This document shows, one piece after another, positions 4,343 through 20,730 of a stretch of 64,000 nucleotides of DNA. Under the pieces are notes generated by a model. That model was not told the DNA's origin. It made no database searches and saw only the letters and a list, made by a program, of their open reading frames with translations. The translations under genes were made by a program, and so were the position numbers. Numbering within the stretch: position 1 is the first letter of the stretch; every line of letters begins with the position of its first letter. Source of the DNA: Bradyrhizobium sp. B097 (GTDB taxonomy: Bacteria > Pseudomonadota > Alphaproteobacteria > Rhizobiales > Xanthobacteraceae); the NCBI RefSeq assembly GCF_038957035.1, contig NZ_CP152412.1, positions 8,118,501 through 8,182,500 on the forward strand. The letters run 5' to 3'.

Positions 4343-4443
4343 CGGCGATATCCAAAACGTATCGGACCCTGCCCCTGAATATATTGGACATAGGAGGGGC
4401 CGCAAGCTTTAACCGGACCAACCACAAGAATCCGGGAGGACCC

Positions 4444-5463
4444 ATGAAGATCGCGCTGCGTGCACTGGCCGCCTCGCTCGCTCTGAGCATCACCATGGCG
4501 TCAACGACAATAGGCCACGCGGCGGAGGCGGGTGAAATCCGCGTGTCGCGAGGCTACAGCGTCCTCTATCTGCCGCAGATGGTGATGCAGAGGAATGCGC
4601 TGATCGAAAAGCACGCCCGCGCGCTCGGACTCGGCGACGTCAAAGTCACCTGGCGGGTCCTCGACGGCGGGAACGTGATCAATGATGCCTTACTGTCGGG
4701 CACGTTGGATGTGGCGGCCGTCGGCACGCCCGGCTTTCTGATCCTTTGGTCCAAGGCGCTCGGCAATCCCTCGGCCGAGATTGCCGGCCTCAGCGGCATC
4801 AGTTCGACGCCGATGTATCTGAACACGATCAATCCGAAGATCAAAACGCTGGCCGACTTCGGCTCTGGAGACAGGATCGCGGTCGCCGGCGTGAGGAGTT
4901 CGCTACCGGCCGGGATCCTGCAGATGATGGTCGCTCACGAATTGGGTCCCGCCAATTATGCACAGCTGGATAAATTCACCGTCGCAATCCCCTACCCCGA
5001 TGCGACGGCAGCGATGCTGAGCGGCAAGACGGAAATCAATGCCCATGTCGCCTCACCCCCGTTCTCGTTGATGGAACTCGACAATCCCAATATCCGGCGC
5101 GTCGCAAACTCGGCCGACATCCTGGGCGACATGACGCTGGTGATGTCGGCTTCGCCGAAACGCTTCCATGACTCCAATCCGACGCTGTGCAAGGCCTATG
5201 TCGAAGCGCTGGATGAAGCCAATCACCTGATCGCCACTGATCCGCAGTCGGCCGCCGACCTCTACAATGAGGCCTCCGCAACCAGGGTGCCGAAGGAAAT
5301 GATGCTTCGTATCCTCTCGGACAAGGACACCCATTTTTCGATCGCTCCTTCTGGCATCGCCCGCTGGGCCTCCTTCATGAAGAGCATCGGCCTGATCCGC
5401 CAGGACGTCACCGATTGGAAGCAATTCTTCTATCCGGAAAGCCATGGTTTGGCCGGAAGCTGA
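4444..5463 (+). CDS. NitT/TauT-type ABC transporter substrate-binding protein
   Basis: The ATG at 4444 follows a GGGAGG-like ribosome site and opens with a Sec signal peptide (MKIALRALAASLALSITMAS, cleaved near GHAAEA). The mature protein resembles the SsuA/TauA/NMT1 binding-protein fold: a GYSVLYLPQMVMQ start, a DVAAVGTPGFLI segment and an ADFGSGDRIAVAG segment. Total length is 339 residues, usual for the family. It is the first gene of an operon with an MmgE/PrpD gene (35 bp later), an ATPase, a permease and a PrpB-like lyase. The ligand is unknown; the neighbours suggest an organic acid rather than a sulfonate. Confidence 0.85.
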   Translation: MKIALRALAASLALSITMASTTIGHAAEAGEIRVSRGYSVLYLPQMVMQRNALIEKHARALGLGDVKVTWRVLDGGNVINDALLSGTLDVAAVGTPGFLILWSKALGNPSAEIAGLSGISSTPMYLNTINPKIKTLADFGSGDRIAVAGVRSSLPAGILQMMVAHELGPANYAQLDKFTVAIPYPDATAAMLSGKTEINAHVASPPFSLMELDNPNIRRVANSADILGDMTLVMSASPKRFHDSNPTLCKAYVEALDEANHLIATDPQSAADLYNEASATRVPKEMMLRILSDKDTHFSIAPSGIARWASFMKSIGLIRQDVTDWKQFFYPESHGLAGS

Positions 5464-5498
5464 ACCGGTCCGGAACGCATCCTCAAGGAAAGATCCTC

Positions 5499-6944
5499 AT
5501 GAGCAGCTCACAGCCCTCCCTTCCGCCTCACGCCACGCGCGCACTCGCGAGCTTCGCCGCCACAACCGGATTCACCGACATCCCAACCGAGGTGATCGAA
5601 CGCATCAAGCTTAGCCTGATCGACGGGCTCGGCGTGTGCCTGCATGGCGCGACCCTGCCCTGGACGCAAAAGGTCTGCGAATTGGCGCGCGAGGAAGGAG
5701 GCAATCCGCTCGCCTCGATCTGGGGAAGCGGGCATCGTACCTCGACGACGAATGCGGTGCTGGTCAACAGCACCGCCGGCCACGCCTTCGAGATGGATGA
5801 CATCCACAAGGAATCCATCCTTCATCCCAATTCGCTGGCCGTGCCGATCGCGCTGGCGTTGGCCGAAGCCGATCCCACTGTCACCGGACGGGATATCGCC
5901 ACGGCTCTGGTGGTCGGCTACGAGGTCGGCCTGCGCGTCGGCAATGCCGCGACGATGTCGCTGTTTCTGAACGGTTTCCATCCGCAGGGCACGTCAGGGA
6001 CTTTCGTCGCGGCGGCGACCGCCGGAAAAATGCTGCGCCTCGATCCCGAGCAGATGCAGAACGCGCTCGGCATTGCCGGATCGATGGCTGCCGGCCTGAT
6101 GGCGGCGCAGGAAGGCGCCATGGTGAAGCGCCTCCATACCGGCCGCGCGGCGCAAGGCGGTCTTCTCGCTGCGCTCCTCGCCAAACGGAGTTTTACAGGG
6201 ATATCCGACGTCGTCGAAGCCGGCTATGGCGGATTCCTCAGCTCGTTCTCACGCACACCAAACCCTTCGCGCTTGCTGGAGGGAATTGGAGAGGACTGGG
6301 AAGCCGGCAAGGTCGGCTTCAAGATGTATCCCAACGTGACCAGCATTCACGCTGCGCTCGACGCGATGCGGTCGATCCTGACCGAGGAGAAGCTGGAGGC
6401 GGCGGATATTGCGGAGGTTCATGTCGGATGCGGCCACATGACCTTCGTGCACACGGCCTGGCCGTACCGGCCCGCCGGCGTCACGGCCGCCCAGATGAAC
6501 ATGTATTACGGCCTCAGCGTCATGGCGCACAAGAAAGACGTGACCGCGGCAGATTACGGCGAGGCGGATATCGCGAGCCAGCAGCTCCTGGACTTCATGT
6601 CGAAGATCAAGATCGAGGAGGATGCAGAGCTCGAGGCGAGCGGCCCGGCCCTCCGCCATGCCGCGCGCGTCCGCGTGCGGACCACCGACGGGCGTTCATT
6701 CGCACGCGAAATCCTGCACCGGCGCGGCAGTCCGGAGAATCCGGTCAAGTGGGGAGATATTGAACGCAAGTTCAACGCCAACATCGCCGGGCTTCTGGCG
6801 CCGAACGTTGGAAGGAACCTGCTCGATTCCTGCGCGATCCTCGAGAAGCTTGCGAATGTCACAGCCATCAACGACATCCTCGCAGCCGCCTTTCCGACGA
6901 CGATGGTGCCAGTGTCGAAGCAACCGGCTGAAGCACGTCGATGA
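5499..6944 (+). CDS. MmgE/PrpD family protein (2-methylcitrate dehydratase-like)
   Basis: The start at 5499 gives MSSSQPSLPPHATRALASFA; longer in-frame starts overlap the preceding gene. The product is 481 residues, full length for MmgE/PrpD. Visible motifs are LSLIDGLGVCLHG (about 34-46), the HAFEMDDIHKESILHP segment (about 92-107), VVGYEVGLRVG, and KMYPNVTSIHAALDA (about 276-290) with the conserved YP-x-H region. The family includes 2-methylcitrate dehydratase, cis-aconitate decarboxylase and many uncharacterised dehydratase/epimerase-like enzymes. The 4-bp overlap with the ATPase gene shows it belongs to the transporter operon, so its substrate is probably the transported compound. It is a second, distinct copy from the one at 1-973. 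Confidence 0.87.
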   Translation: MSSSQPSLPPHATRALASFAATTGFTDIPTEVIERIKLSLIDGLGVCLHGATLPWTQKVCELAREEGGNPLASIWGSGHRTSTTNAVLVNSTAGHAFEMDDIHKESILHPNSLAVPIALALAEADPTVTGRDIATALVVGYEVGLRVGNAATMSLFLNGFHPQGTSGTFVAAATAGKMLRLDPEQMQNALGIAGSMAAGLMAAQEGAMVKRLHTGRAAQGGLLAALLAKRSFTGISDVVEAGYGGFLSSFSRTPNPSRLLEGIGEDWEAGKVGFKMYPNVTSIHAALDAMRSILTEEKLEAADIAEVHVGCGHMTFVHTAWPYRPAGVTAAQMNMYYGLSVMAHKKDVTAADYGEADIASQQLLDFMSKIKIEEDAELEASGPALRHAARVRVRTTDGRSFAREILHRRGSPENPVKWGDIERKFNANIAGLLAPNVGRNLLDSCAILEKLANVTAINDILAAAFPTTMVPVSKQPAEARR

Positions 6945-7732
6945 CACCAGCGCTCACCGGCCAGTCAGCCCTCCTCGAGGTCAAAGGGCTGACGCTTCAG
7001 TACAAGACCGAGCGGAGCCAGGTGACCGCAACATTCCGCGTGAGTTTCGAGGTTTTTGCCGGAGACCGCTACGTGCTGCTTGGCCCCTCCGGCTGCGGCA
7101 AGTCGACCCTTTTGAAGGCCATCGGCGGATATCTGCATCCCACCGAAGGCAGCATCCGATTGGCCGGACGGGAGATCGTCAAGCCCGGCCCGGACAGGAT
7201 GATAGTTTTCCAGGAATTCGACCAGCTATTTCCCTGGTTGACGGTAGCGCAGAATGTCGCCTTTGCGCTGACAAACGGCGTCGGCATGTCGCGGAAGCTT
7301 GCGATCAAGAAGGCGCGCGATTTTGTCGGCCGGGTTGGCTTGTCAAAATTTGCCGATGCCTTCCCTCACGCGCTGTCCGGCGGCATGAAGGCGCGTGTCG
7401 CCATCGCCCGCGGCATGGCAGTCGAACCGGAGATTCTGCTGATGGATGAGCCGTTCGCCGCGCTCGACGCGCTGACGCGCGCGCAGATGCAGGACGATCT
7501 CTTGCTGCTATGCCGGCAAACCAAAACGACGATCATCTTCGTCACGCATTCGATCAGCGAAGCCATCAAGCTTGGCAACCGAATCCTGTTGCTCTCGCCG
7601 CATCCGGGCCGCGTCAAGGCCGAGCTTGGCGGTGACGGCAAGGATGATGTCGATCCGTCAAACGGATTGAAGAAGTCGGAGAAAATCCACCGTCTGCTGT
7701 TCTCCGAAGACCGAAAAGCGGAGGTCGACTAG
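6941..7732 (+). CDS. NitT/TauT-type ABC transporter ATP-binding protein
   Basis: A 263-residue ABC ATPase of the SsuB/TauB type. Walker A GPSGCGKST is at residues 48-56, the signature LSGGMKARV at 145-153 and Walker B ILLMDEP at 165-171, followed by an H-loop in FVTHSISEA. It overlaps the preceding gene by 4 bp and is separated by one base from the permease at 7734, so the three are translated together. It energises import of the ligand bound by the protein at 4444. Confidence 0.95.
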   Translation: MTPALTGQSALLEVKGLTLQYKTERSQVTATFRVSFEVFAGDRYVLLGPSGCGKSTLLKAIGGYLHPTEGSIRLAGREIVKPGPDRMIVFQEFDQLFPWLTVAQNVAFALTNGVGMSRKLAIKKARDFVGRVGLSKFADAFPHALSGGMKARVAIARGMAVEPEILLMDEPFAALDALTRAQMQDDLLLLCRQTKTTIIFVTHSISEAIKLGNRILLLSPHPGRVKAELGGDGKDDVDPSNGLKKSEKIHRLLFSEDRKAEVD

Positions 7733-7733
7733 C

Positions 7734-8606
7734 ATGAAGAGGAACGCGTCGACGATGCCGGAGCGGCGTGACGTCATACGTGAAGTTCCCGACGTCACCG
7801 TCGTTTCTGAACGAAGCCTTTCCGTCTGGGAGCGACTCTACAATATCGACGGAACGCGGCGTGGCGCGGTCATCCTGATGTTGGCGCTGGCGTGGGAATT
7901 GTACGGACGCTGGCTCAACAATCCCCTGCTCTTTCCGACCCTCGGCGAGACGCTAGAAGCACTCTGGTCCGGTCTTTCGACCGGCGAGTTGACCCGTCAT
8001 GTCCTTGCTTCGCTGCAGACATTGCTGATCGGTTACATCGCGGGAGTAGCACTTGCGGCCATGCTTGCCGTCGCAGCGATCACCTCGCGCTTCGGCAATG
8101 ACCTGCTGACCACGCTGACGTCCATGTTCAACCCACTGCCGGCAATCGCCCTATTTCCGCTTGCGCTGATTTGGTTCGGTCTTGGCGTATCGAGCATTGT
8201 GTTCGTGCTGATTCACTCGGTGTTGTGGGCCGTTGCGCTCAATACCAACGCCGGCTTTCGCGGCGTATCCAGGACGCTGCGCATGGTGGGACGGAATTGC
8301 GGGCTTTCCGGGCTCTCCCTTATCGGCAAGGTCATCCTGCCGGCGGCTTTGCCGAGCGTGCTGTCCGGATTGAAGATCGGCTGGGCGTTTGCCTGGCGCA
8401 CCCTGATCGCGGCGGAGATGGTGTTCGGCGTTGCCTCCGGCGATGGTGGGCTTGGCTGGTATATCTTGCAGAGCAAGAACTCGCTGGAGACGCCGAGCGT
8501 CTTCGCGGGTCTGCTTGCGGTTATCATCGTCGGCCTGCTCGTCGAACTGATCCTCTTTCGCGCGATCGAGCGGAGCACCATTGACCGCTGGGGAATGCAG
8601 CATTGA
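7734..8606 (+). CDS. NitT/TauT-type ABC transporter permease
   Basis: This 290-residue membrane protein has about six hydrophobic helices from residue 40 onward. Its EAA-like loop reads LRMVGRNCGLSGLSLIGKVILPAALPSVLSGLKIGWAFAWR (split here across residues about 181-221), matching SsuC/TauC permeases that contact the ATPase. The first 35 residues are a polar cytoplasmic tail. It lies one base after the ATPase stop and 16 bases before the lyase start, in the middle of the operon. Confidence 0.93.
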   Translation: MKRNASTMPERRDVIREVPDVTVVSERSLSVWERLYNIDGTRRGAVILMLALAWELYGRWLNNPLLFPTLGETLEALWSGLSTGELTRHVLASLQTLLIGYIAGVALAAMLAVAAITSRFGNDLLTTLTSMFNPLPAIALFPLALIWFGLGVSSIVFVLIHSVLWAVALNTNAGFRGVSRTLRMVGRNCGLSGLSLIGKVILPAALPSVLSGLKIGWAFAWRTLIAAEMVFGVASGDGGLGWYILQSKNSLETPSVFAGLLAVIIVGLLVELILFRAIERSTIDRWGMQH

Positions 8607-8622
8607 AGACGGAGCATTAAGG

Positions 8623-9486
8623 ATGCGTAACACGATACGACTGAAGCAGATGATGGCTAAGCGGGAGGGGCTTACGGTCCCCGGCGTCGCCAATGCGCTG
8701 TTTGCGAGGGTCGCCGAAGACCTCGGATTTCCTGCGATCTATGCGACCGGCGCCGGGATTGCCAACATGCATTTGGGCGCGCCGGACATCGGACTAACGA
8801 CCTTGACGGAAGTCGCGACCGCAGTTGCGGCGATGGCAGATACGGTCTCGGTCCCAGTGATCGTCGATGCCGACACCGGTTTCGGCAACCCGGTCAACAT
8901 GGTTCGCACCGTCCGTGTGCTCGAACGCGCCGGAGCCGCGGGGATTCAGATCGAAGACCAGGTCTTTCCGAAGCGATGCGGGCATTTTACCGGAAAGGAT
9001 GTCATTCCTCTGGACCAGATGGTCCAGAAGATAAAGGCCGCGGTGGACAGCCGCGGCGATCAGGACTTGCAGATCATCGCCAGAACAGACGCCCGCGCGG
9101 GCGAGGGTCTCGATCGCGCGATCGAAAGAGCGCAGCGCTTTGCGGAAGCGGGCGCCGATGTGACGTTCGTGGAGGCGCCACTATCCCTCGCCGAACTCGA
9201 GCGGATCGCCCGCGAAGTGCCCGTTCCGCAGGTTGCGAATATCGTCCACGGTGGACGAACACCGGATCCCGGACGCGCCGCATTTGCGCAAATGGGTTTT
9301 GGCATCGTCCTATATGCAAATGCCGTCTTACAGGCGGCATTGCGCGCTTCAAGCCAGATCCTCTCGATCTTGAAGCAAGACGGCAGCCTGGAAAACGGGT
9401 CTGGCCTGTTGGCAACGTTCGAGGAGCGCCAACGATCGGTCGCCAAGGATGCGTGGGACAAGCTCGAGCAAAGATATCGCGATTGA
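8623..9486 (+). CDS. Isocitrate lyase/PEP mutase family lyase (PrpB-like)
   Basis: The ATG at 8623 has a GGAG at 8611 and gives a 287-residue protein; a TTG at 8581 would overlap the permease. The (beta/alpha)8 family motifs are clear: VPVIVDADTGFGNP (Mg-binding DxD), AAGIQIEDQVFPKRCGHFTGK with the KRCGH catalytic cysteine typical of 2-methylisocitrate lyase and related lyases, and IIARTDARAGEGLDRAIERA. These favour a C-C lyase over phosphonopyruvate mutase. As the last gene of an operon with a PrpD-like enzyme and a transporter, it probably cleaves the processed substrate into a 2-oxoacid and a C4 acid. The natural substrate is not established; 2,3-dimethylmalate or oxaloacetate-type activities occur in the same family. 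Confidence 0.87.
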   Translation: MRNTIRLKQMMAKREGLTVPGVANALFARVAEDLGFPAIYATGAGIANMHLGAPDIGLTTLTEVATAVAAMADTVSVPVIVDADTGFGNPVNMVRTVRVLERAGAAGIQIEDQVFPKRCGHFTGKDVIPLDQMVQKIKAAVDSRGDQDLQIIARTDARAGEGLDRAIERAQRFAEAGADVTFVEAPLSLAELERIAREVPVPQVANIVHGGRTPDPGRAAFAQMGFGIVLYANAVLQAALRASSQILSILKQDGSLENGSGLLATFEERQRSVAKDAWDKLEQRYRD

Positions 9487-9798: not shown

Positions 9799-12700
9799 CT
9801 ACTTAGTCGACCGGCCAAGCTTCAGGTCGACCGCACAGGGTCCACTCCGGTTGAACCTGATCCTGAAGTTCACGTCCGACCCAACCGACAACTCCGACAG
9901 CACGTCAGGCTCCACAAGCGAGTTGTGCGCGAAGATGCTGCTTGGATAGCTTCCCGACCGGATGAAGAAGAATTGCGGCTTCATCCCCTCAACCGTTCCC
10001 GAATAGCGGCCGAGCAAAGCGGTCACGGCAGATTCCTTGCGGGGTGCGACTCTTCTGAAGCTCGGCGGCGCCTTCGAGTTGATGTAATCGAACAGCTCCG
10101 ACGCCCGCAGCGGCTGCCCGCGATAAAACAAGAACTCGCCCAGGACGTAACGCTCTTCGTAGTTCGCATCACCGGCCGAAAAGCTGTTCCTCAAATGTTG
10201 CTCGACGAGATCAGCGTCGAAGTTTGGCTGACGCAGGTAATGCAGGGCGAGCATCTGGTGTGCTTGCTTGTCGTCTGAATTCCGGGTCAACGCTTCCTTT
10301 AGTATTTTTTCGGCGTCGACGTCCCGCTTTCTAGCCTGATAGATTCGAGCCACACGGATGGCCAGGCCGGAACCACGGGGACCGGCTGCCCACGCCCTTT
10401 CGAGCGCCCACAATGCCTTGTCCTTCTGGTCCAGCTCACTCCTGAGACGGGCCTCGACTTGGATGATGTCAGAGTCGTCAGGAAACTCTTGCTGGGCTTT
10501 GATAAGTGCGGTCTCCGCGTCCTTCACCTTCTCCGCGAAGAAGATGGCGTCGTGGGGTTTGGCGTCCTCCGCCAGGGCCCGCCCAATGTCCTCGACCTCG
10601 TCCACCAGCAGCTTGCACCGGCTCGACACAGTGAACCTGTCGTTCTGCGGCAGTTCAGCTAGCCGCGCCCTCACCCGCCTGCGGAGGGATTCCTTTAAAA
10701 TGACCGAGGGTTCGTCGTTCGCTCTTCGGCGATCGATTTCGGCCTGGGTGTGAACGATACTCTTGTTCTTGGGGTCGAGGTCGTGGGCGTCCGCGGCGTG
10801 CAGCTCTGCGTCGGCAATCGATCCGTGCGGATGGTTCAGCTCGAACACCGCCCACTGCTGATGCAGGAAGGCCTGAGTGGGGGCTGCTTTGATTGCGGCT
10901 TCGTAGATTCCTCGAACTTCATCTGGCTTGTTGAAGTTTTCGGCCAGACCACGTCCCTTCGTCATCTCCTCCAAGGCACGGCGGTCGGAGGAATATCCGA
11001 CATCGATGCCGTCCAGAATCCTGATGAACTGGCGCGATTTCGCTTCGTCAGTAGGACACACCTGCCTAAACACGAGCTGGGCAACGCGAGAATGGCGGGT
11101 CCGGTATACATAGTCGCCCGAATAGCTATCGGTTGTGACCCGTACGATGTTTTCGAGGGGGTGGAAGAAGTTGTTCTTGTAGTCCTCGAAATCGATGCCC
11201 GAGATACGTGAAATTGTACCGGCCCTGATGTTCACCCCGAATTGGTGCATGGTCGCGATATCGAGGTAAAGCTGGCGAGCTTGTTCCGGGTTCACGTTCT
11301 GGTGCTCGGAGAAGACAATCTCCTCGAAGGGTTTGCCTTGCGTCAGTTCATGCAAAGCCACTAAGAGCTGCCTATCGGCGCGGCCCATGAACGCTTCGAT
11401 ACGCTCCTCGTAGTTCTTCTCCTTCAGCAGTCCCAAGCAGGAGTGCTTTTCGAGCAAATCGAGCAGCGAGACTGTTTCGTCGGCGGACAGGTTGCCGACC
11501 CGCTTTTCAACCGGCTCCAGATCCTCAAGAGCACCACAGTACGTGTTCCAATCGGAATCTCTCTCGGCGCCGACGATGACCAACGGGATTTGCTTTTGCT
11601 GGGCGTGTTTGTGGAGCGCCAGAACCTTGTCGACGTGAAGCGCGAGCTGGTCGACGAACAGGTACATCGTCGCGTTGGTCAGCTCGTAGATTTCTGCGAA
11701 CACCTCCGGCCGGAGGGCGCCATCCTCCTTCAGCCACAGTACGAGCGCGTTTGAAGCAGTGGCGGCCTCGAATGCGGTTCGCTTGAGAACAATCGATTTA
11801 CCCGCACCGCCAGGCCCGCGCGCGACGACCAGAAAAGGTCCCTTCAGGTTCTCATTTTCGAGCAGGATCGTGAAAAGGAGGTCGTCTTCGATCTTTCTGC
11901 GAGCGTCGAATCTCTGGACAATGCTGCCCCAGCCGGTGTCATACCCCGAGTAAAATCGTTCCGCGGTCTGCGGTGCAGATGACATGCCGGCATGGACGTG
12001 GGTAAGGTCGTTCTGCAGCGCCAGCTTGACCTTGTGGGATTCCTCGGTTCGCTGGACGTAGAACTTGCGAAGCGGCAACTCAGATACCGCATCACTGACG
12101 GCCAGGGATCGCCAGAGCGGCGGGATGGCCGCATCGAGCGATTGCATGAACTCCCCGAACCGCGCCTTGATAACCTCGATGTTCTTCGAGGCCCAGTAAT
12201 TGATATCGTAGTCCTCAGCATCGGGCGTGACGATGTACCAGCGCGGTCGTCGGTTGGTCTCCAGCTTGTAAATCAGTTCCCGGATGTGGGGATCATCAAG
12301 CCGATAGCCGATAAAGAGCAACGTCGACTCTCGGGCGAGCTGCCTCAGCCTTTCGAACAGGTGGGTACGGTTGGCCGAATACGTTGCGTACTGCTCCTTG
12401 GCCAGGACGAGAGGCACGTCGCGGTCGTAGACATGATCGAGACAGCCATGCAGTTTCAAATATGCCACGGGATTAGGGACCGCCTGCATCCGCTCCTCGA
12501 CAGGCTCATCGTCCTTTATGAACCGCACGAGGGACTGCATGCGCTTTGACGAGCTGCTGTAGGCTTGCTCGACAAGGGTGTCGTAGTTGGTGGTCGCGAT
12601 CATGCGCCAGTTGAAGGCGCTGAGAGCCATGTGCGCCTGAGACGGCGGGTAGCCGTCGAAGGCTTGCCGCACCGCATCGTAGACTAGACCAGTCCCCCCC

Positions 12701-12939
12701 GCCGACGAGATCGCCATGTCGGACACGGCCATTACGTCCCTGTTTGGGATAAGCTTGCCGAAGAACTTCTGAGCCAGGACGTCCCTGAGCTGGTCGGCAT
12801 CAGGTGGCATCTTGCCGGTAGAATTACGGGATTCCTTCGAGGCACCTGCTCCTAGGAAGGGAATAACCCGCTTGCTTTTGACAGCCTCAACAAGCACGTC
12901 CGGAATCTTGACGAGCGGCGCGGCCGGTTTTTTCCCCAT
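9799..12939 (-). CDS. SIR2-STAND-TPR protein with C-terminal cold-shock-like domain (probable defence NTPase)
   Basis: The start at 12939 gives MGKKPAAPLV and 1046 residues; upstream in-frame codons to 13104 lack family character. Residues about 20-230 are a SIR2-like NADase domain: GAGAS (30-34), TTNYD (116-120), KLHG with the catalytic-type His (162-165) and GYRLDDPHI (211-219). A P-loop GPGGAGKS lies near residue 375, followed by a Walker-B-like MYLFVDQ, fitting a STAND-type NTPase. About 630-940 is helical with TPR-like repeats (EAAIKAAPTQAFLHQQWA, KILKEALTRNSDDKQAHQML). The last 85 residues resemble a cold-shock/OB fold: GTVEGMKPQFFFIRS, then SIFAHNSLVEPDVLSELSVG. In SIR2-STAND defence proteins such as Avs5 and relatives, ligand sensing triggers NAD+ depletion; that role here is inferred. 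It neighbours a putative second effector and mobile elements. Confidence 0.82.
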   Translation of the reverse strand: MGKKPAAPLVKIPDVLVEAVKSKRVIPFLGAGASKESRNSTGKMPPDADQLRDVLAQKFFGKLIPNRDVMAVSDMAISSAGGTGLVYDAVRQAFDGYPPSQAHMALSAFNWRMIATTNYDTLVEQAYSSSSKRMQSLVRFIKDDEPVEERMQAVPNPVAYLKLHGCLDHVYDRDVPLVLAKEQYATYSANRTHLFERLRQLARESTLLFIGYRLDDPHIRELIYKLETNRRPRWYIVTPDAEDYDINYWASKNIEVIKARFGEFMQSLDAAIPPLWRSLAVSDAVSELPLRKFYVQRTEESHKVKLALQNDLTHVHAGMSSAPQTAERFYSGYDTGWGSIVQRFDARRKIEDDLLFTILLENENLKGPFLVVARGPGGAGKSIVLKRTAFEAATASNALVLWLKEDGALRPEVFAEIYELTNATMYLFVDQLALHVDKVLALHKHAQQKQIPLVIVGAERDSDWNTYCGALEDLEPVEKRVGNLSADETVSLLDLLEKHSCLGLLKEKNYEERIEAFMGRADRQLLVALHELTQGKPFEEIVFSEHQNVNPEQARQLYLDIATMHQFGVNIRAGTISRISGIDFEDYKNNFFHPLENIVRVTTDSYSGDYVYRTRHSRVAQLVFRQVCPTDEAKSRQFIRILDGIDVGYSSDRRALEEMTKGRGLAENFNKPDEVRGIYEAAIKAAPTQAFLHQQWAVFELNHPHGSIADAELHAADAHDLDPKNKSIVHTQAEIDRRRANDEPSVILKESLRRRVRARLAELPQNDRFTVSSRCKLLVDEVEDIGRALAEDAKPHDAIFFAEKVKDAETALIKAQQEFPDDSDIIQVEARLRSELDQKDKALWALERAWAAGPRGSGLAIRVARIYQARKRDVDAEKILKEALTRNSDDKQAHQMLALHYLRQPNFDADLVEQHLRNSFSAGDANYEERYVLGEFLFYRGQPLRASELFDYINSKAPPSFRRVAPRKESAVTALLGRYSGTVEGMKPQFFFIRSGSYPSSIFAHNSLVEPDVLSELSVGSDVNFRIRFNRSGPCAVDLKLGRSTK

Positions 12940-13054
12940 GGAAGCCCCCAACAATAAAAGGCTCCATTGATTTGAGCCCTTATTCCCTTCGTAGTTGTGC
13001 AAGGGGCCATTGCAAGCCCTAAATTGGGCTAACACCCGGCTTTCCAGTGGGTGC

Positions 13055-13147: not shown

Positions 13148-13259
13148 CGCTATTCCTCTGTATGTGCTTCTCGCGCTGGGTCATCTTGTGCCGCTGCTCA
13201 AATAGGCGCTACGCTAACGAGGTTCTGCGCATCCTCCCCCACCCCCAGGCGCCCAAAAT

Positions 13260-13284
13260 GCCCCGTAACCAACCGGGGCTTTTT
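13260..13284 (+). terminator. Rho-independent-type hairpin in the leader of the deoxyribosyltransferase-like gene
   Basis: GCCCCG (13260-13265), an 8-base loop and CGGGGC (13274-13279) form a 6-bp GC stem followed by TTTTT (13280-13284). It stands only 12 bases before the start codon at 13297 and just before the ribosome site TAGGAG. No upstream gene on the plus strand needs a terminator here, so it may end a short leader or small RNA. Confidence 0.55.
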
Positions 13285-13296
13285 GCTAGGAGACTT

Positions 13297-14151
13297 ATGG
13301 CCACAAAGCGCTGCCTATACATATCTACTTTTGGTCCAGGAAATGCTCCGACGCACAGTGCCGCTGAAGCCGCCTATAACGCACTTGTCGCGCCGGTTTT
13401 TCGCATAGATTTTCCTGAATTTGAGGTCATTCGATTTCACTCTGAATCCGTGCACGGTTCAATTAGTGAAGAGCTCTTGAACGATGTTCTAACTGCCGAT
13501 TTGGTCATAGCTGACCTCACTGAGCTCACTTCGAACGGATTTTATGAACTTGGAGTGCGGCATTCGACCGGGCTTCCCACTGTATTGCTGGCGCAGGTTG
13601 GTCATCCACTGGCCTTCGACCATAAGGATTTTCGGTTCGTCACCTATCTCAATAAGGGAACTGACGACGAGGTTGAGCAGAGGACACGGGAAGCACTCAT
13701 CGAAGCCATCAACAGCGCTCTTCAAGCAACCCAGCTTACTCCTGCCTCTGGTCTTCCCGCGAATAGAATATCCACGCGCGAAACGCGCCACGAGTTGGCT
13801 ACACGGATACAGGAATCCGCCGATGCGCTCCAATCGCTGCGCATCAATTCGGCTGCAGAGATCGTTGCTTCACTACACAAGATTGCGGCGGACCTCGAAA
13901 CCATCGAAGACGAAAAGACTCCTTCAGCGATTCAAGAGGCGGGAGAAAAGGTTCTTAAGGTCCTCTCGCGGATAGCTGACCAGCTTTCAACCGTTAAAGG
14001 CTCTCGCATCGTCATTGCGGGCGTTATCTCGCTCGTTTTGGGTGGTGCCGGCTATTCCGCTTTCACGATTTACGGGCTCACGTTGGCCTTCTGGCAAGGA
14101 CCCGAAATGTTCAGCAAGGCGATCGACGCGCTCGCGAAACGAAAGAGGTAG
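13297..14151 (+). CDS. Nucleoside deoxyribosyltransferase-like protein with C-terminal membrane helix (putative effector)
   Basis: The ATG at 13297 has a strong AGGAG ribosome site; an ATG at 13162 in the same frame has no such support. The 284-residue product starts MATKRCLYISTFGPGNAPTHSAAE. A conserved ADLVIADLTELTSNGFYELGVRHS segment (about 66-89) matches the D-x-T...N-x-x-Y-E-L-G pattern of nucleoside 2-deoxyribosyltransferase-like/TIR-related folds. Residues about 150-225 are helical (probable coiled coil). One hydrophobic segment at about 230-255 (IVIAGVISLVLGGAGYSAF) should anchor it in the membrane. Its composition is AT-richer than the surrounding operons, a sign of transfer. It is divergent from the SIR2 gene and ends 8 bases before the IS21-type element. 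An NAD- or nucleotide-cleaving toxin role is inferred from fold and context. Confidence 0.65.
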   Translation: MATKRCLYISTFGPGNAPTHSAAEAAYNALVAPVFRIDFPEFEVIRFHSESVHGSISEELLNDVLTADLVIADLTELTSNGFYELGVRHSTGLPTVLLAQVGHPLAFDHKDFRFVTYLNKGTDDEVEQRTREALIEAINSALQATQLTPASGLPANRISTRETRHELATRIQESADALQSLRINSAAEIVASLHKIAADLETIEDEKTPSAIQEAGEKVLKVLSRIADQLSTVKGSRIVIAGVISLVLGGAGYSAFTIYGLTLAFWQGPEMFSKAIDALAKRKR

Positions 14152-14273: not shown

Positions 14274-15773
14274 ATGCTGGTCGTGGAGACGATTGCGCGG
14301 ATTCGGCGCGAGCACTTCATCAAGGGCAAGACGATCAAGGAGATCGCCCGCGACCTGAAGGTGTCGCGGAACACGGTCCGGAAGGTGCTGAGGTCCGGAG
14401 AGACCTCCTTCGAGTACGAGCGGCAGGTGCAGCCGCGGCCAAAGCTGGGGCGGTGGGCATCGGAGCTCGATAGGCTGCTGGCGGCGAACGCGACCAAACC
14501 GGCTCGTGAACAGCTGACGCTGATCCGGATCTTCGAAGAGCTGCGCGGGGGCGGCTACGACGGCGGTTACGATGCCGTGCGGCGTTACGCCAGGCGGTGG
14601 AGCAAAGAACGCGGGCAATCGACCGCGGCCGCTTATGTCCCGCTGTGCTTTGCCCCCGGCGAAGCCTACCAGTTCGACTGGAGCCACGAGGTGGTCTTGC
14701 TGAGCGGCACCACGGTGATGGTGAAGGCCGCCCATGTCCGGCTCTGTCACAGCCGCATGCTGTTCGTGCGGGCCTATCCGCGGGAGACGCAGGAGATGGT
14801 GTTCGACGCCCACGACCGGGCGTTCGCCCTGTTCAAAGGCACCTGCACCCGCGGCATCTACGACAACATGAAGACCGCCGTAGAGACGATCTTCGTCGGT
14901 AAAGGGCGTCTCTACAATCGCCGCTTCCTGCAGATGTGCAGCCACTATCTGGTCGATCCGGTCGCCTGCACGCCAGCGTCGGGCTGGGAGAAGGGCCAGG
15001 TCGAGAACCAGGTCGGGCTAGTCAGGGAACGCTTCTTCACGCCGCGGCTGCGGTTCAAAAACCTCGACGAGTTAAACGCCTGGCTGCTCGACAAATGCAT
15101 CGCCTACGCCAAGGCTCATCGCCATCCGGAACTGGTCGATCAGACGATCTGGGAAGTGTTCGAAGCCGAACGCCCCAAACTCGTTCCTTATGCCGGCCGC
15201 TTCGACGGCTTCCATGCGGTGACGGCATCGGTCTCCAAGACCTGCCTGGTGCGCTTCGACAATAACAAATACTCGGTCGCAGCCAGCGCAGTCGGACGAC
15301 CGGTCGAGGTTCAAGCCTATGCCGATCGCATTGTGATCCGTCAGGATGGACGCATCGTTGCCGAGCACCCGCGATCCTTTGGCCGCGGCGATACCGTCTA
15401 CGACCCCTGGCATTATGTGCCGGTGCTCGCCCGCAAACCCGGCGCCTTGCGCAACGGTGCTCCCTTCAAAGACTGGGTGCTGCCGGCCGCGATCGAGCGG
15501 ATCCGGCGCAAGCTTGCCAGCACCGACGATGGCAATCGGCAGATGGTCGACATCCTCAACGCGGTGCTGACTGACGGTCTGCCCGCGGTGGAAGCAGCCT
15601 GTGCCGAAGCGCTCAGTCACAGCGTCCATTCCGCCGATGTCGTGCTCAATATCCTGGCCCGTCAACGTGAACCCGCCCCACCGGCCAACATCATGACGCC
15701 GGCCGCACTGACGCTCCGTCATGCGCCGATCGCCGATTGTGCCCGCTACGACAACCTCCGGAGGACCATCTAA
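14274..15773 (+). CDS. istA: IS21 family transposase IstA
   Basis: A 499-residue transposase. The N-terminus has a helix-turn-helix ([20 protein letters not shown], about 23-42). The DDE catalytic core shows an FDWS aspartate, a second aspartate in IYDNMKTAV and a glutamate in [10 protein letters not shown]. The C-terminal part ([14 protein letters not shown]) is the Mu-transposase-like beta-barrel region. The stop TAA overlaps the istB start ATG by one base (TAATG), normal coupling in IS21 elements. It appears intact. Confidence 0.93.
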
Positions 15774-16636
15774 TGGAACGAACCCAAATCTTCGACCTCA
15801 TGGGCGAACTCAAGCTCTACGGCATGAAGGCTGCCTTCGACGAGATCATGGCAACTGCCGTCAAACGCCAGCACGAACCTCAGCGCATTGTCGGCGACCT
15901 GCTCAACGCCGAGATCAACGAGAAGCAAGCCAGGTCGATCAAATACCAGCTCACCATTGCCAAGCTGCCGCTTGCCAAGGACATTGCCGACTTCCAGTTC
16001 GACGGCACGCCGATCAATCAGACTCTCGTCAATGATCTCGCTGGCGGCGGCTTCATCGCCCAACAACGCAACGTCGTGCTGGTTGGCGGCACCGGCACAG
16101 GCAAGACCCACCTGGCCATTGCCATCGCCAGAAGCTGCATCCGATCCGGAGCTCGCGGCCGCTTCTTCAACGTAGTCGACCTCGTCAATCGCCTCGAGAC
16201 CGAGACCCGCAACGGACGGCAAGGACGGCTCGCCGAGCATCTGACCCGGATGGACTTCATCGTGCTGGATGAACTCGGCTATTTGCCCTTCGCCCAGTCC
16301 GGTGGCCAGCTTCTCTTCCACCTCGTCAGCCGGCTCTATGAGCGCGCCTCTGTCATCGTGACCACCAATCTCGCCTTCGGCGAATGGCCGAGCGTGTTCG
16401 GCGACGCCAAAATGACCACCGCGCTGCTCGACCGGTTGACCCATCACTGCGACATTGTCGAGACCGGCAACGACAGCTGGCGGTTCAAGAGCCGAGACGA
16501 CGATCACGCCACCCGCGCTCGTCTCGCCTCCGCTATCCCGGCCAGCTCCGACGAGACGAGCGCTACCAGCAAAGCCCGCCGCGCAAAGGGGTCAAAATTG
16601 GACGCCGATGAGGGGTCAAATTTGAACGCCGATTGA
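15773..16636 (+). CDS. istB: IS21 family helper ATPase IstB
   Basis: The ATG at 15773 overlaps the istA stop. The 287-residue protein has the N-terminal IstB domain ([15 protein letters not shown]), Walker [10 protein letters not shown] at residues 105-113 and Walker [12 protein letters not shown], all typical of the DnaC-like ATPase that assists IS21 transposition. The last residues read through the inner and terminal repeats, and the stop lies two bases from the element end, so the C-terminal tail is low in information. Confidence 0.93.
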
Positions 16637-16638
16637 CA

Positions 16639-18160
16639 TTCCGGCCTGCGTGTCCTCGATCCCGTCCGCGTGCGCGGCGAGATCGATCTTCACCGGCTGG
16701 ATGCCGACCACATGCGCGGCCGCCCCGACATAGAAGATTTGGGCGGCGAGCGCGTGGGTCACCGCTACGATGGCAACGTCAGGCTGCTCACTCAGATTGA
16801 GCCGCAGCCCCAAGGTTCGGTGCGCAGTGAGGTCGCGGACGAGCGCGTCGGACAGCTTCTGGTCCTCGTCCTCCTCGTCGCTAGCGCCCTCGTCGTCCTC
16901 ACCGTCCGGCGCGGCTTCCTCGCCTCCCCGGTCCTCGCCATCCCGCCCCTCGGCATCGCTGTCCGGCCCGGTTCCAGCCTCGGGCTTCTCGTCTCCGGGG
17001 CGGATAAAGCCCCGTTCGATCCGCACGCTGCCGTCGTGATTGAGGCTCAGGAACGCGCCGCCGCAGGCAACATCTTCAGCGTCGTAGGCCTGCCGTTTCG
17101 CTTCCAGCCGCTCGATTTTGGCCTCCAGCTGGCCGAACCGCGCGTCCACCTCATCAGGCAGTTCCTCGGCCGTCTGGTGCTGCTCAGTCAACCGGTCGAA
17201 CTCGGTCTGAACGGACTGACGCGCGGCTTGATCCTCCGCCGACAGCTCGACTGGATGCGGGTAGACGCGCCGCATGCCGTGGGCATGCGGGAAGTCGAGA
17301 TGGGCTTCCGTCCACCTCCATCCTTCGGCCGCCCGCAAGGCGTCCGCCTCGCGATTGAGCCTTGCCGTCACCAAGAGATCGAGCAGCGCCACATCTTCCA
17401 GATAGCCGCCGCGATCATCTGTGAAGAGGTCGCGCAACACCGTGCCGCCCGCCTCCGTGTAGGCCTCGAGGCCGACAAAGCGCGCCCGGCGATCCGTGGC
17501 GGCGACATGGGTTTCGGTGAGCAGACGGCGGATGGTCGAGGCATCCGGGTCAAAGGGCAGGCGCTCATACAGGGCTTCCTGCCGGGCATGATCATCCGTG
17601 ATGGCAAAGGCCATCAGCTGCTCAAGCGTCAGATCGCCATCACGATAGAGCTGCACCAATTTTGGCGAAACCGCACCCAATCGGAGCCGTTGCCGCACCA
17701 CATGCGCTGTCACGCCGAAGCGTGCCGCGATCTCCTCCGCGCCGAGCCCGCGCTCGTCCGCCTGCTTCCTGAACGCCTCGAACTGGTCGGCCGGATGCAT
17801 GTTCTCCCGGGTGACATTCTCGTCCAGGCTGATTTCGTGGGGGTCGTTCGCGGTGTCGACGATGCAGCGGATCGGCTCGCTTTTCCTGATCTCCTTGCGC
17901 TCTACCCGCAGCAGCTGGGCCAGCCGCCTGCCCTCGCCGATGGTCACGCAGAAGAACCCCGTCGCCGCCCCTTCACCATCGACCTCCGGCTCGACGACCA
18001 GATTCTGCAGGATGCCTTTGACGGCGATACTCGCCGCCAGGGCCTCGATCGCCGCATCGCTGTGCGGCGTCTTGCGGGCATTCTTCGGTGACTTCTTGAG
18101 CTTGCCGAGCGGAATGCGAACCTCCGTTCCGTCAGGTATTCCAATCGATTTGGCCGACAT
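16639..18160 (-). pseudogene. ParB/RepB/Spo0J-like protein, C-terminus removed by the IS21 element
   Basis: The start at 18160 (MSAKSIGIPDGTEVRIPLGK) sits 7 bases after AGGAAG. About 507 codons remain before the insertion border; the frame then picks up seven foreign residues in the element. Residues about 12-110 form the ParB N-terminal domain (KLKKSPKNARKTPHSDAAIE, then GEGRRLAQL), followed by a helix-turn-helix (LGAEEIAARFGVTAHVVRQR). A coiled-coil stretch and an acidic Glu/Asp-rich stretch follow. Long ParB-like proteins of this kind occur on integrative elements and plasmids of Rhizobiales. The missing end is not on the other side of the insertion, so an associated deletion is likely. 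It is probably a relic of a larger mobile element. Confidence 0.75.
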
Positions 18161-18695
18161 GATCATTCTTCCTTTTGCTTCCATGGGTGCAAGGCGCACT
18201 CCGCGCCTGCGCCCCTGCCCGTCGGCGAGACCGGGGGTAGCAAGTGCCAGGGCGACCTGAGCGGAGGGGACTCCCCACCTTTTGCAAGAGCATTTCTCGC
18301 AAGCTCGACCGACCATTCGCAGCTTCCCGTTCTCGCCTTTTGGGCAGGGTGAAGAGCGCAACATCGCGCTCGAAGCCCTGCCTCGCGGCGAGCAGCGGGT
18401 GTGCAAGCGGAGCGAGTGCCTTCGCGGGGAACCGGCTGCAGGGAGCGGGATAATTGTCGCCTTTAGCGTTAGTGAGCAGCGACCGAAGCTGGGCGGAAGG
18501 CACTCCGAAGCGCGCTGAGGGCGGAGCCCTAAGTCTTCGCCGCGGGAGCACAGCGACACGCACAACAACGCCGGCACGGCGACAACACTCACAAGTGTCA
18601 TCGTCGCTGATATGAAGAACGACTGGTTACATCCGGGCCTGTCGTCGTCGCGACGCTTCGCAATTTGGAAGCTTCGCGTCGCGCCGACGCCAGGA
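18161..18695. other. Non-coding GC-rich stretch between ParB-like relic and IS110 transposase
   Basis: No frame here has a supported protein or ribosome site. It is the upstream region of the ParB-like relic and probably includes the unrecognised downstream end of the IS110-type element. Confidence 0.4.
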
Positions 18696-19937
18696 TCAGG
18701 CCGCTGCGGACTGCGGAATTCGGTTGTTGTCGAAGAGTTCACCGGTTCTGAGCATGGCACAAGCAACGCCAATCAACCTGCTGCCGATAGACCGGAGCGC
18801 GCGAGCATGGGAATGCCCACGCTTGCGCAAGGCGGCATATCGATTGCGCGTTTGGAAGTCATGCAGCACCGCAACGCGCGCCCAATGATAGACAGCGGTC
18901 CTCAGACGGTGCGGGCAAGACTGCCTCATGACCACGACCATTTGCTTACCGCTGCGTCGTGTGACGGGCGCGACGCCCGATAATCCCCGAAGCGCCTGAG
19001 CGTCTCGGTGAACGATCGCATCACGCCCCTCGGACAGAAGTGCAGCGAGGACAATCGTTCCGATTCCAGGCATCGAGCGCAAGATCTGGGGATCGGCCTG
19101 GGGCGCGATACCTGTCGCTGACGGAAGCTCGGCCACCGCCGAACACAGGCGTTCGAGCTCCTTCATGGCTTGCTTCATCTGGTGCATCACCAACCGCAGA
19201 CGGCCCAAAATAAGCTGACAATGGGCCACGCAGGCCTCCGTAACGCCGGCGGCCACCGATATCGGTGTGCTGCGAAGATGGGTGAGCAGAGTGTCCGCAG
19301 TCCACCTCTTCACCCTGCTCTCCTTGAGGTGCCTTTCGATCGTCGACGCCCTCACCGTTCGTGCCCTTGCCGGTGTCGGGATCAGATCCCAGAGATCCAA
19401 AATCCACTGCTTCGACCAATCTTCTGCCAACTCAAGCATCTGTGGAAAATACCGCCACAGTTGATGACGAAAGCGGTTGGCCAGGCGATTGCGTTCGGCG
19501 GACAAATCTTCCGTCATGCGTGACCACTCGCGCAACTGAATGATCGTCGGATGTACCGGCTCCAGGAAACGATAGAAACGCCGATCCGTCCGCAGAGCAT
19601 CAGCGAGCACAAACGCATCGAGCCGATCATCTTTTGCGCCCGCTATCGTGAATCGATCTCGAAAGCGATCGAGCTGCTTTGGATTCAACGCATAAACGAG
19701 AAAGCCAGAATCCATTAGGCTTTCGACGACGGGTCCGTGCGGGACCTCAATGCCAATCGCGATACGACCTGGTTCGGCACCCGTCGTTTGCTGAACCCAG
19801 CCTGCCAGTTCAGCCAAACCTTCCCCGCTATGTCTAAATGAGCGATGGCCGAGCTTCGCTCCATGGGCATCCAAAGCGTAAGCGTAGTGCGTCGCCGATG
19901 CCCAATCGATGCCGACGTATGCAGCTATGTCTTCCAT
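18696..19937 (-). CDS. IS110 family transposase
   Basis: The start at 19937 gives MEDIAAYVGIDWASATHYAY with a GGAAGGGG ribosome site; an ATG three bases earlier is also possible. The 413-residue protein has the DEDD (RuvC-like) N-terminal domain, with GIDWA and KDDRLDAFVLADALR. The C-terminal transposase_20 domain includes LRSMPGIGTIVLAALLSEG, and the catalytic-serine-region segment reads LRGLSGVAPVTRRSGKQMV. The ORF appears intact. IS110 elements usually lack clear terminal repeats, and I could not fix the ends. It lies within the relic mobile region. Confidence 0.92.
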   Translation of the reverse strand: MEDIAAYVGIDWASATHYAYALDAHGAKLGHRSFRHSGEGLAELAGWVQQTTGAEPGRIAIGIEVPHGPVVESLMDSGFLVYALNPKQLDRFRDRFTIAGAKDDRLDAFVLADALRTDRRFYRFLEPVHPTIIQLREWSRMTEDLSAERNRLANRFRHQLWRYFPQMLELAEDWSKQWILDLWDLIPTPARARTVRASTIERHLKESRVKRWTADTLLTHLRSTPISVAAGVTEACVAHCQLILGRLRLVMHQMKQAMKELERLCSAVAELPSATGIAPQADPQILRSMPGIGTIVLAALLSEGRDAIVHRDAQALRGLSGVAPVTRRSGKQMVVVMRQSCPHRLRTAVYHWARVAVLHDFQTRNRYAALRKRGHSHARALRSIGSRLIGVACAMLRTGELFDNNRIPQSAAA

Positions 19938-20730
19938 CATTCCCCTTCCTTTCTGCGTGGTCGGGCAGCTGCGATCCTCGCCGGCCCTGTTCTGGCGCTC
20001 AAAGGCGCAACTCCCCACGGGGCGTCGACCGCAGCTAATCCGCCGGGGCACTCGTCCCCTCTAGGCGCTCACGGCGCAGGATCACCAGGTGGCTCCCGAC
20101 GAATCAGCCCGTAGGCCGACGATAGCCCCGTGAGGAGCATCCTGATTGGAACAGGGATCGCCCGCCCGATCAGGGCCGCTCAAAGAGCGGGTCTGCACAA
20201 GCGCGTGCTACGTCGTCCAAAATCGGCAGGTGAGAAAGCGCGGAAGACCGGGGAGACCGCTCGGGTCGGCGCCGGCCCAAGCCGGCGCTTCACCCTGGCG
20301 CGCGCGAGGGACGGAGTCCCTTAGCTCTCGACGATGAGGCAGCCGCCGACAGAGCAGTGATAGCGACGCGGTTATGCAATGACCGCGGGCACCGAGGCGA
20401 CTGCAGTCGCGAGACCGGTTAACAAGGCCCCCGAGCGCGGGACAGCGATAGCGACGCCGGCATGCAATGACGGCGGGGCCCGCGGGCGAGTGCCTCCGGC
20501 GAGCGACACATTATCTCTCTGTACTTGCGCGAGGGACCGTAGCCGTATGGCCGAGACGCTCCGCGGCGCGGTTCACGAGAGCCCGGTCCGCGACCAGCGG
20601 ATGCGCCCAACCCCAACGAGCCCACTTCCCGTCTGTCGCAGCGAACGATGCGCCGTTGTCTTAAGCCGAATTCTGTTTCACCATCGGCTTCTTCGCCGCT
20701 GAAATATCCGGCAATCCTTCCTGACTGGAG
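19938..20730. other. Non-coding accessory stretch with a short direct repeat
   Basis: No supported gene. It includes the leader of the IS110 transposase and the pair of 35-base repeats listed separately. Its mosaic look suits a junction of mobile-element remnants. Confidence 0.4.
20355..20477. repeat. Two copies of a 35-base imperfect direct repeat
   Basis: CAGTGATAGCGACGCGGTTA at 20355 (to 20389) and CAGCGATAGCGACGCCGGCA at 20443 (to 20477) match at about 30 of 35 positions, sharing GATAGCGACGC and ATGCAATGAC cores, 88 bases apart. The function is unknown; it could be a dispersed repeat family or part of an element end. Confidence 0.5.

Follow-up and report, generated by a model that had tools for sequence, protein, structure and literature searches.

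We analysed a window of 64,000 nucleotides from the single-contig, 9.25 Mb genome of Bradyrhizobium sp. B097 (contig NZ_CP152412.1, positions 8,118,501 to 8,182,500) and found a single gene at 9799-12939 that encodes a predicted protein with a SIR2 domain, an nSTAND5 NTPase, TPR-like helices and a C-terminal cold-shock/OB domain, an assignment based on the open frame, Pfam matches and a length equal to that of a Bradyrhizobium pachyrhizi protein. With moderate confidence, we favour the reading that this is a one-gene, Avs-like abortive-infection protein, in which a ligand of the C-terminal part, including single-stranded RNA (ssRNA) or single-stranded DNA (ssDNA), would trigger NAD+ hydrolysis by SIR2. 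The gene lies on the minus strand and runs from 12939 to 9799, with an ATG at 12937-12939, a stop codon at 9799-9801 and a product of 1046 residues; the plus strand of 9799-12939 is broken by several stops, and the complementary strand reads as a single open frame of 1046 codons. An earlier sequence-only reading of this feature was right about its domains and is corrected here as to the strand; the motifs it named are all present (GAGAS, residues 30-34; TTNYD, 116-120; LHG, 163-165; GPGGAGKS, 375-382; FFFIRS, 990-995; SIFAHNS, 1001-1007). We prefer this ATG to a TTG extension to 13104, which is probably not the start, because the closest of the 120 listed homologues (out of 513), the B. pachyrhizi protein, is 93% identical over its full length and also has 1046 residues.

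By profile and model comparisons, the C-terminal end is a real cold-shock/OB barrel, far beyond chance. The predicted cold-shock domain (CSD) spans residues 978-1041 (9817-10008, minus strand), with an FFFI stretch (990-993) resembling ribonucleoprotein motif 1 (RNP1) and an IFAH stretch (1002-1005) resembling RNP2. Pfam CSD (PF00313) matched residues 980-1039 of the whole protein at 21.9 bits, under the 27-bit cut-off (E 1.6e-4), and the last 94 residues scored alone reached 27.3 bits (cut-off 27, E 3.3e-6). A family profile of the C-terminal end matched Unr, CspE, CspC, CspA and CspB in the PDB (best E 3.4e-12), and the AlphaFold2 model of this domain is a five-stranded barrel with Unr CSD1 as its top structural match. 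The Pfam CSD score, the profile matches and the structure matches together rule out a chance motif, and the earlier proposal of a beta-barrel or OB fold in the last 90 or so residues is thus upheld.

We then examined the putative nucleic-acid surface in 69 aligned full-length rows (from the proteins of 84 relatives, with 16 under 1025 residues left out and the duplicate L040 left out of a second alignment). The base-stacking positions of CspA, which we take to be Phe18, Phe20, Phe31, His33 and Trp11 in its numbering, were chosen a priori from cold-shock proteins and not from alignment counts. Their equivalents are aromatic in most rows (990, F/Y in 60/69; 992, F in 62/69; 1003, F/Y in 66/69), and at least two of these three positions are F/Y/W in 58 of the 61 non-redundant rows. 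The first hairpin is two residues shorter than that of CspE, and the alignment to Unr CSD1 is gapless through this hairpin and both RNP regions; the CspA tryptophan is lost here, as in Unr CSD1. The structure 4qqb comes from the SXL-UNR translation regulatory complex and contains its Unr portion, in which CSD1 is presumably the RNA-contacting domain. Given the retained stacking aromatics and the gapless match to Unr CSD1, which also lacks the tryptophan, binding of ssRNA or ssDNA by the CSD appears plausible, with a reduced platform, and we regard single-strand binding as probable.

Several observations weigh against a role of the CSD in sensing nucleic acid. The RNP2 histidine 1005 is kept in just 37/69 rows, the first hairpin (residues 982-989) holds a tryptophan in none of the 61 non-redundant rows, and the strict motifs RNP1 [YF]-G-F-I and RNP2 [YF]-[YF]-H, as defined in a figure legend of PMC7825780, are replaced by FFFI and IFAH, with G991 in 23/69 rows. 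Apart from the linker, no segment is less conserved than the CSD and the TPR part (mean identity of 0.25 each vs 0.34 for SIR2, taken over the 40 most distant members), and 16 of 68 members fail E 0.01 for Pfam CSD. The packing of the domains in the AlphaFold2 model is uncertain because its predicted template modelling score (pTM) is 0.58. The one trigger of a SIR2-STAND system that we found described, that of Avs5-JADA, is a phage protein (PMC12931631). The altered RNP motifs, the missing tryptophan and the fast divergence would also suit an OB barrel that has lost nucleic-acid binding and serves as a protein-binding sensor; we consider this very improbable, given that the three a-priori stacking positions are aromatic in most members and that Unr CSD1, matched without gaps and likewise devoid of the tryptophan, belongs to an RNA-regulatory complex.

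The other domains carry the motifs expected of a SIR2-STAND-TPR protein, the arrangement that had been read from the sequence and is borne out by Pfam. The SIR2 NADase-type domain (residues 14-275; 12115-12900, minus strand) has intact N118, D120 and H164, and Pfam SIR2_2 (PF13289) matches residues 113-257 (E 1.6e-28, 100 bits vs a cut-off of 24.5). The nSTAND5 P-loop NTPase (residues 326-505; 11425-11964, minus strand) contains the Walker A motif GPGGAGKS (375-382) and D430 and is matched by Pfam nSTAND_NTPase5 (PF25199) at 328-470 (E 1.9e-31, 109.3 bits vs a cut-off of 34). TPR-like helix pairs form an array at residues 681-960 (10060-10899, minus strand), as indicated by Pfam TPR_14 (861-898, E 1.2e-6), TPR_19 and AlphaFold2 helices. 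N118 is kept in 68/69 aligned rows and H164 in 69/69, and both align with KomC residues that are alanine in the mutant entry 9v12; a further KomC entry, 9xvc, is named H146N, and we assume that such mutants are inactive. The Walker A lysine K381 is present in 69/69 rows and D430 in 67/69. Judged from these alignments, nearly all relatives keep motifs typical of active enzymes, and the compatibility of the SIR2 site with NAD binding, on which the earlier proposal depended, is supported by the intact catalytic Asn and His, matching those of KomC. PADLOC model matches to the protein fall within the SIR2 part.

The family is widely spread, with 513 homologues at E 0.001 among 7992 scored candidates. 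A search with the family alignment recovered relatives in 75 genome-contig loci from Alpha-, Gamma- and Deltaproteobacteria, Nitrospirales, Planctomycetes, Acidobacteria, Cyanobacteria, Chloroflexi, Gemmatimonadetes and further groups, one locus being a short Lokiarchaeota contig from a metagenome-assembled genome (MAG); many of these loci are MAGs, so binning errors are possible. A single-sequence scan of the genome contigs found no relative. Seven viral contigs and 17 plasmid records carried a relative; 14 of the plasmid matches cover at least 80% of the query, and 9/17 are from Klebsiella, mostly near-copies. The one phage match was weak and confined to the SIR2 part. Within the genus the gene is rare, with same-family-like matches in 3/146 genomes (its own, one at 33% and one broken fragment at 49%), a count that leaves out matches to the SIR2 or TPR part alone; at the class level, 2/385 genomes matched at E 1e-30, its own included.

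The C-terminus is a constant part of this family, kept in all 69 aligned full-length rows across many phyla. A profile of the family C-terminus was positive for 11 of the 16 shorter proteins, in three of them in a separate open piece, and the frames of the five without it (L038, L079, L091, L098 and L101) stop at or within about 210 bases of the end of the DNA. Likewise, 114 of 121 proteins (the 120 listed homologues plus the window protein) have it, including all 105 of at least 1000 residues, and the seven without it (790-990 residues) look cut or broken. In L079, a Pseudanabaena MAG, the match in the 1004-residue frame at 9995-13006 stops at residue 938 and the frame runs to the end of the locus with no CSD seen, so this protein is either broken or a member without a CSD.

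The nSTAND5 domain also pairs with other partners. Among 21 PF25199 matches, nine of the 10 complete frames were scanned (eight came from searching 398 genomes with PF25199, the ninth from the genome of the window; the remaining complete frame, L130, seems to duplicate L129), and none of these nine other proteins had a CSD at E 0.01. SIR2 is present in five of them and a metallophosphatase domain in one; as whole proteins, L128 and L129 fall just below the nSTAND5 cut-off, and L128 scores NACHT higher. Since nSTAND5 occurs in these proteins with other partners and without a CSD, the CSD is the mark of a single lineage, which fits a specialised role in sensing or regulation. The second SIR2-nSTAND5 protein of the same genome (810 residues, G000:C1 at about 833-835 kb, L025:385-2814) lacks a CSD and is 22% identical to the window protein over residues 7-660. 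In L115:184-3105, an N-terminal calcineurin-like phosphoesterase replaces SIR2 before nSTAND5, another effector on the same NTPase, again with no CSD.

That relatives with nSTAND5 exist without a CSD is also what would be seen if the TPR array recognised a phage protein, as happens in other SIR2-STAND systems, and the CSD were a structural lock or cap, the loss or displacement of which activates SIR2. Gain-of-function mutations of SAMD9/9L concentrate in the NTPase and in the C-terminal half, autoinflammatory disease is associated with SAMD9L frameshifts that cut the C-terminal region short (both PMC13245274), and in PaAvs5 the C-terminal repeats are believed to serve both in holding the protein inactive and in sensing (PMC12931631). 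However, a mere lock needs no conserved stacking aromatics at the RNP positions, though these may serve the fold, and we hold a TPR sensor with the CSD as its lock to be rather unlikely.

The genomic setting points to a role in phage defence. In E. coli N18-04097, a P4-like satellite carries, in the interval from psu to its integrase, a relative that is 29% identical to the window protein over the whole length. This gene is a copy, at 98.5%, of that in the viral contig L109, and megablast found close copies of the L109 gene in only 1/5426 E. coli genomes. P4-type genes flank the relatives on both sides in Raoultella (L100, where the gene is broken into more than one frame) and in the viral contigs L107, L109 and L110; of these four, psu itself was found only in L100 and L109. 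Published work describes the psu-int slot as an anti-phage hotspot, where the domain joined to a STAND NTPase "coupled to C-terminal repeats" may be SIR2 rather than TIR (PMC9122126). Elsewhere, a Psychrobacter plasmid carries a relative next to type I restriction genes, and a Vibrio relative is near VapBC and an Abi protein. On the one Klebsiella plasmid examined, a conjugative plasmid with resistance genes, the relative sits among insertion sequences. No neighbour recurred often in 81 loci: the largest clusters were tyrosine-integrase-like and recombinase-like (8 loci each), followed by clusters of at most four, with frames of at least 90 residues, flanks of uneven length and types assigned in part by eye; the P4 integrase is matched in seven loci. 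A search with the flanks of the gene gave only partial matches in other genomes (34/60 genomes matched, its own included), with no empty site seen, and ARAGORN found no tRNA in the window. Because relatives occur on plasmids, on viral contigs and in the psu-int hotspot of P4-like satellites, anti-phage NAD+ depletion is the likely role. Taking the genomic setting together with the SIR2 domain and the STAND switch, we consider defence by NAD+ depletion highly probable.

In the mechanism we propose, the STAND NTPase and the C-terminal half would keep the SIR2 domain off at rest. Upon infection, the C-terminal part would bind a ligand, part of which would be ssRNA (or ssDNA) that stacks on the CSD face formed by F990, F992 and F1003; the NTPase would then switch, the protein would assemble and the SIR2 domains would hydrolyse NAD+, so that the infected cell is stopped. 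We infer NADase activity, assembly, nucleic-acid binding and binding as the trigger, and it is with some reserve that we name single-strand binding by the CSD as what sets the protein off. Alternatively, the CSD might act as a tether or guard that is constantly bound to host RNA, to ribosomes or to some other nucleic acid of the host, and the protein would be activated once the phage disturbs this target. The low sequence selectivity of CSDs for single strands (PMC7825780) suits such a tether better than an invader-specific sensor, but nothing here tells a host from a phage ligand, and we judge a host tether improbable.

Next to the gene, the divergent frame at 13300-14151 (plus strand) matches a PADLOC TIR effector model with its first half (E 1.9e-9) and has a hydrophobic stretch near its C-terminus; the longer frame at 13162-14151 has no Pfam match. 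It is possibly a second defence gene. A two-gene system with this neighbour was rejected, as the neighbour frame gave no tblastn match at E 1e-3 in the loci of the relatives. Close to it is an IS21-type pair at 14274-16636 (plus strand; a transposase with rve and Mu-transpos_C, and IstB). The window also holds a 718-residue frame with a ParB helix-turn-helix match at 16616-18772 (minus strand) and, adjoining the latter, an IS110-type transposase at 18699-20051 (minus strand). An operon-like group at 4384-9486 (plus strand) appears, by eye, to encode a substrate-binding protein, an MmgE/PrpD-like protein, an ABC ATPase and a permease and, last, an enzyme of the phosphoenolpyruvate mutase/isocitrate-lyase type.

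We further compared the protein with known systems. The protein is not an Avs5, the example named in the sequence-only reading: NCBIfam NF041814 scores 18.8 bits against a cut-off of 1000, over residues 21-55 only, and nSTAND3 (PF20720), the NTPase of Avs5 (PMC12931631), has no match at E 1, nSTAND5 being found instead. Relative to Avs5 (AVAST type 5, SIR2-nSTAND3-repeats), the window protein is about 180 (PDB 9jap) to 280 (9nc9) residues longer, and the alignment to 9jap stops at residue 847, before the CSD. DSR2 membership was similarly rejected (NF041819, 40.9 bits vs a cut-off of 1400, residues 28-218 only); DSR2, ThsA and KomC share the SIR2 fold and the catalytic Asn and His with the window protein, but close similarity is limited to this domain and the sensing parts differ. 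Unlike the cold-shock domains of Unr/CSDE1 and CspA, that of the window protein is fused to a protein resembling nucleotide-binding leucine-rich repeat receptors (NLRs). The P4 psu-int STAND proteins occupy the same genomic slot as relatives of the window protein, and the passages of PMC9122126 consulted make no mention of a cold-shock domain. Among open-licence PMC papers and a few preprints, we recognised none on a bacterial SIR2-nSTAND5-TPR-CSD family, although Table S1B of PMC9122126 may well hold members, and the term nSTAND5 is absent from the open-licence PMC papers. The nearest published accounts are those of SAMD9 and its bacterial homologues (PMC5445408), the P4-hotspot SIR2-STAND-repeat proteins (PMC9122126) and cold-shock domains, named with other RNA-binding domains that occur in NTP-dependent conflict systems of bacteria (PMC7159879).

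The closest likeness in layout is to the SAMD9 family. The sequence-only reading took an OB end on such a protein to be undescribed, yet the SIR2-STAND-TPR-OB core of the SAMD9 family, with an OB fold most like cold-shock proteins, was published in 2017 (PMC5445408), and the window protein has this core in the same order. Human SAMD9 (PDB 9zjr, 9zjz), an antiviral protein, is the only one of the best 50 solved structures that aligns with it end to end; no SAMD9 chain is among the best 60 of 92 PDB sequence matches to the family profile, and SAMD9 is not in the best 50 structure matches to the CSD alone, an absence not used as evidence. SAMD9 has a Walker A motif of GGT/S, with Gly for Lys, and a variant SIR2, whereas the window lineage keeps an invariant lysine and active-type catalytic residues. 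The SAMD9 family also has AlbA_2 N-terminal of SIR2, though lost in some members (PMC5445408), whereas none is found in the window protein at E 1, where the first model helix is at residue 14. Thus, the layout itself is known, and what is new by these comparisons is a bacterial lineage with active-type SIR2, the P-loop lysine and no AlbA_2 found. A compact bacterial protein of SAMD9 layout with intact motifs, with an E. coli version on a P4-like satellite, would make the role of the OB domain testable by simple phage assays; if the favoured reading is true, nucleic acid would join the possible ligands of bacterial SIR2-STAND sensors, of which the one that we found described, for Avs5-JADA, is a phage protein (PMC12931631). 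It is conceivable, though we would not expect it, that these proteins are pan-bacterial NLR-like NADases that sense single-stranded nucleic acid through the CSD and keep the working SAMD9 chassis, with active SIR2 and P-loop lysine, SAMD9 being a repurposed descendant or sister.
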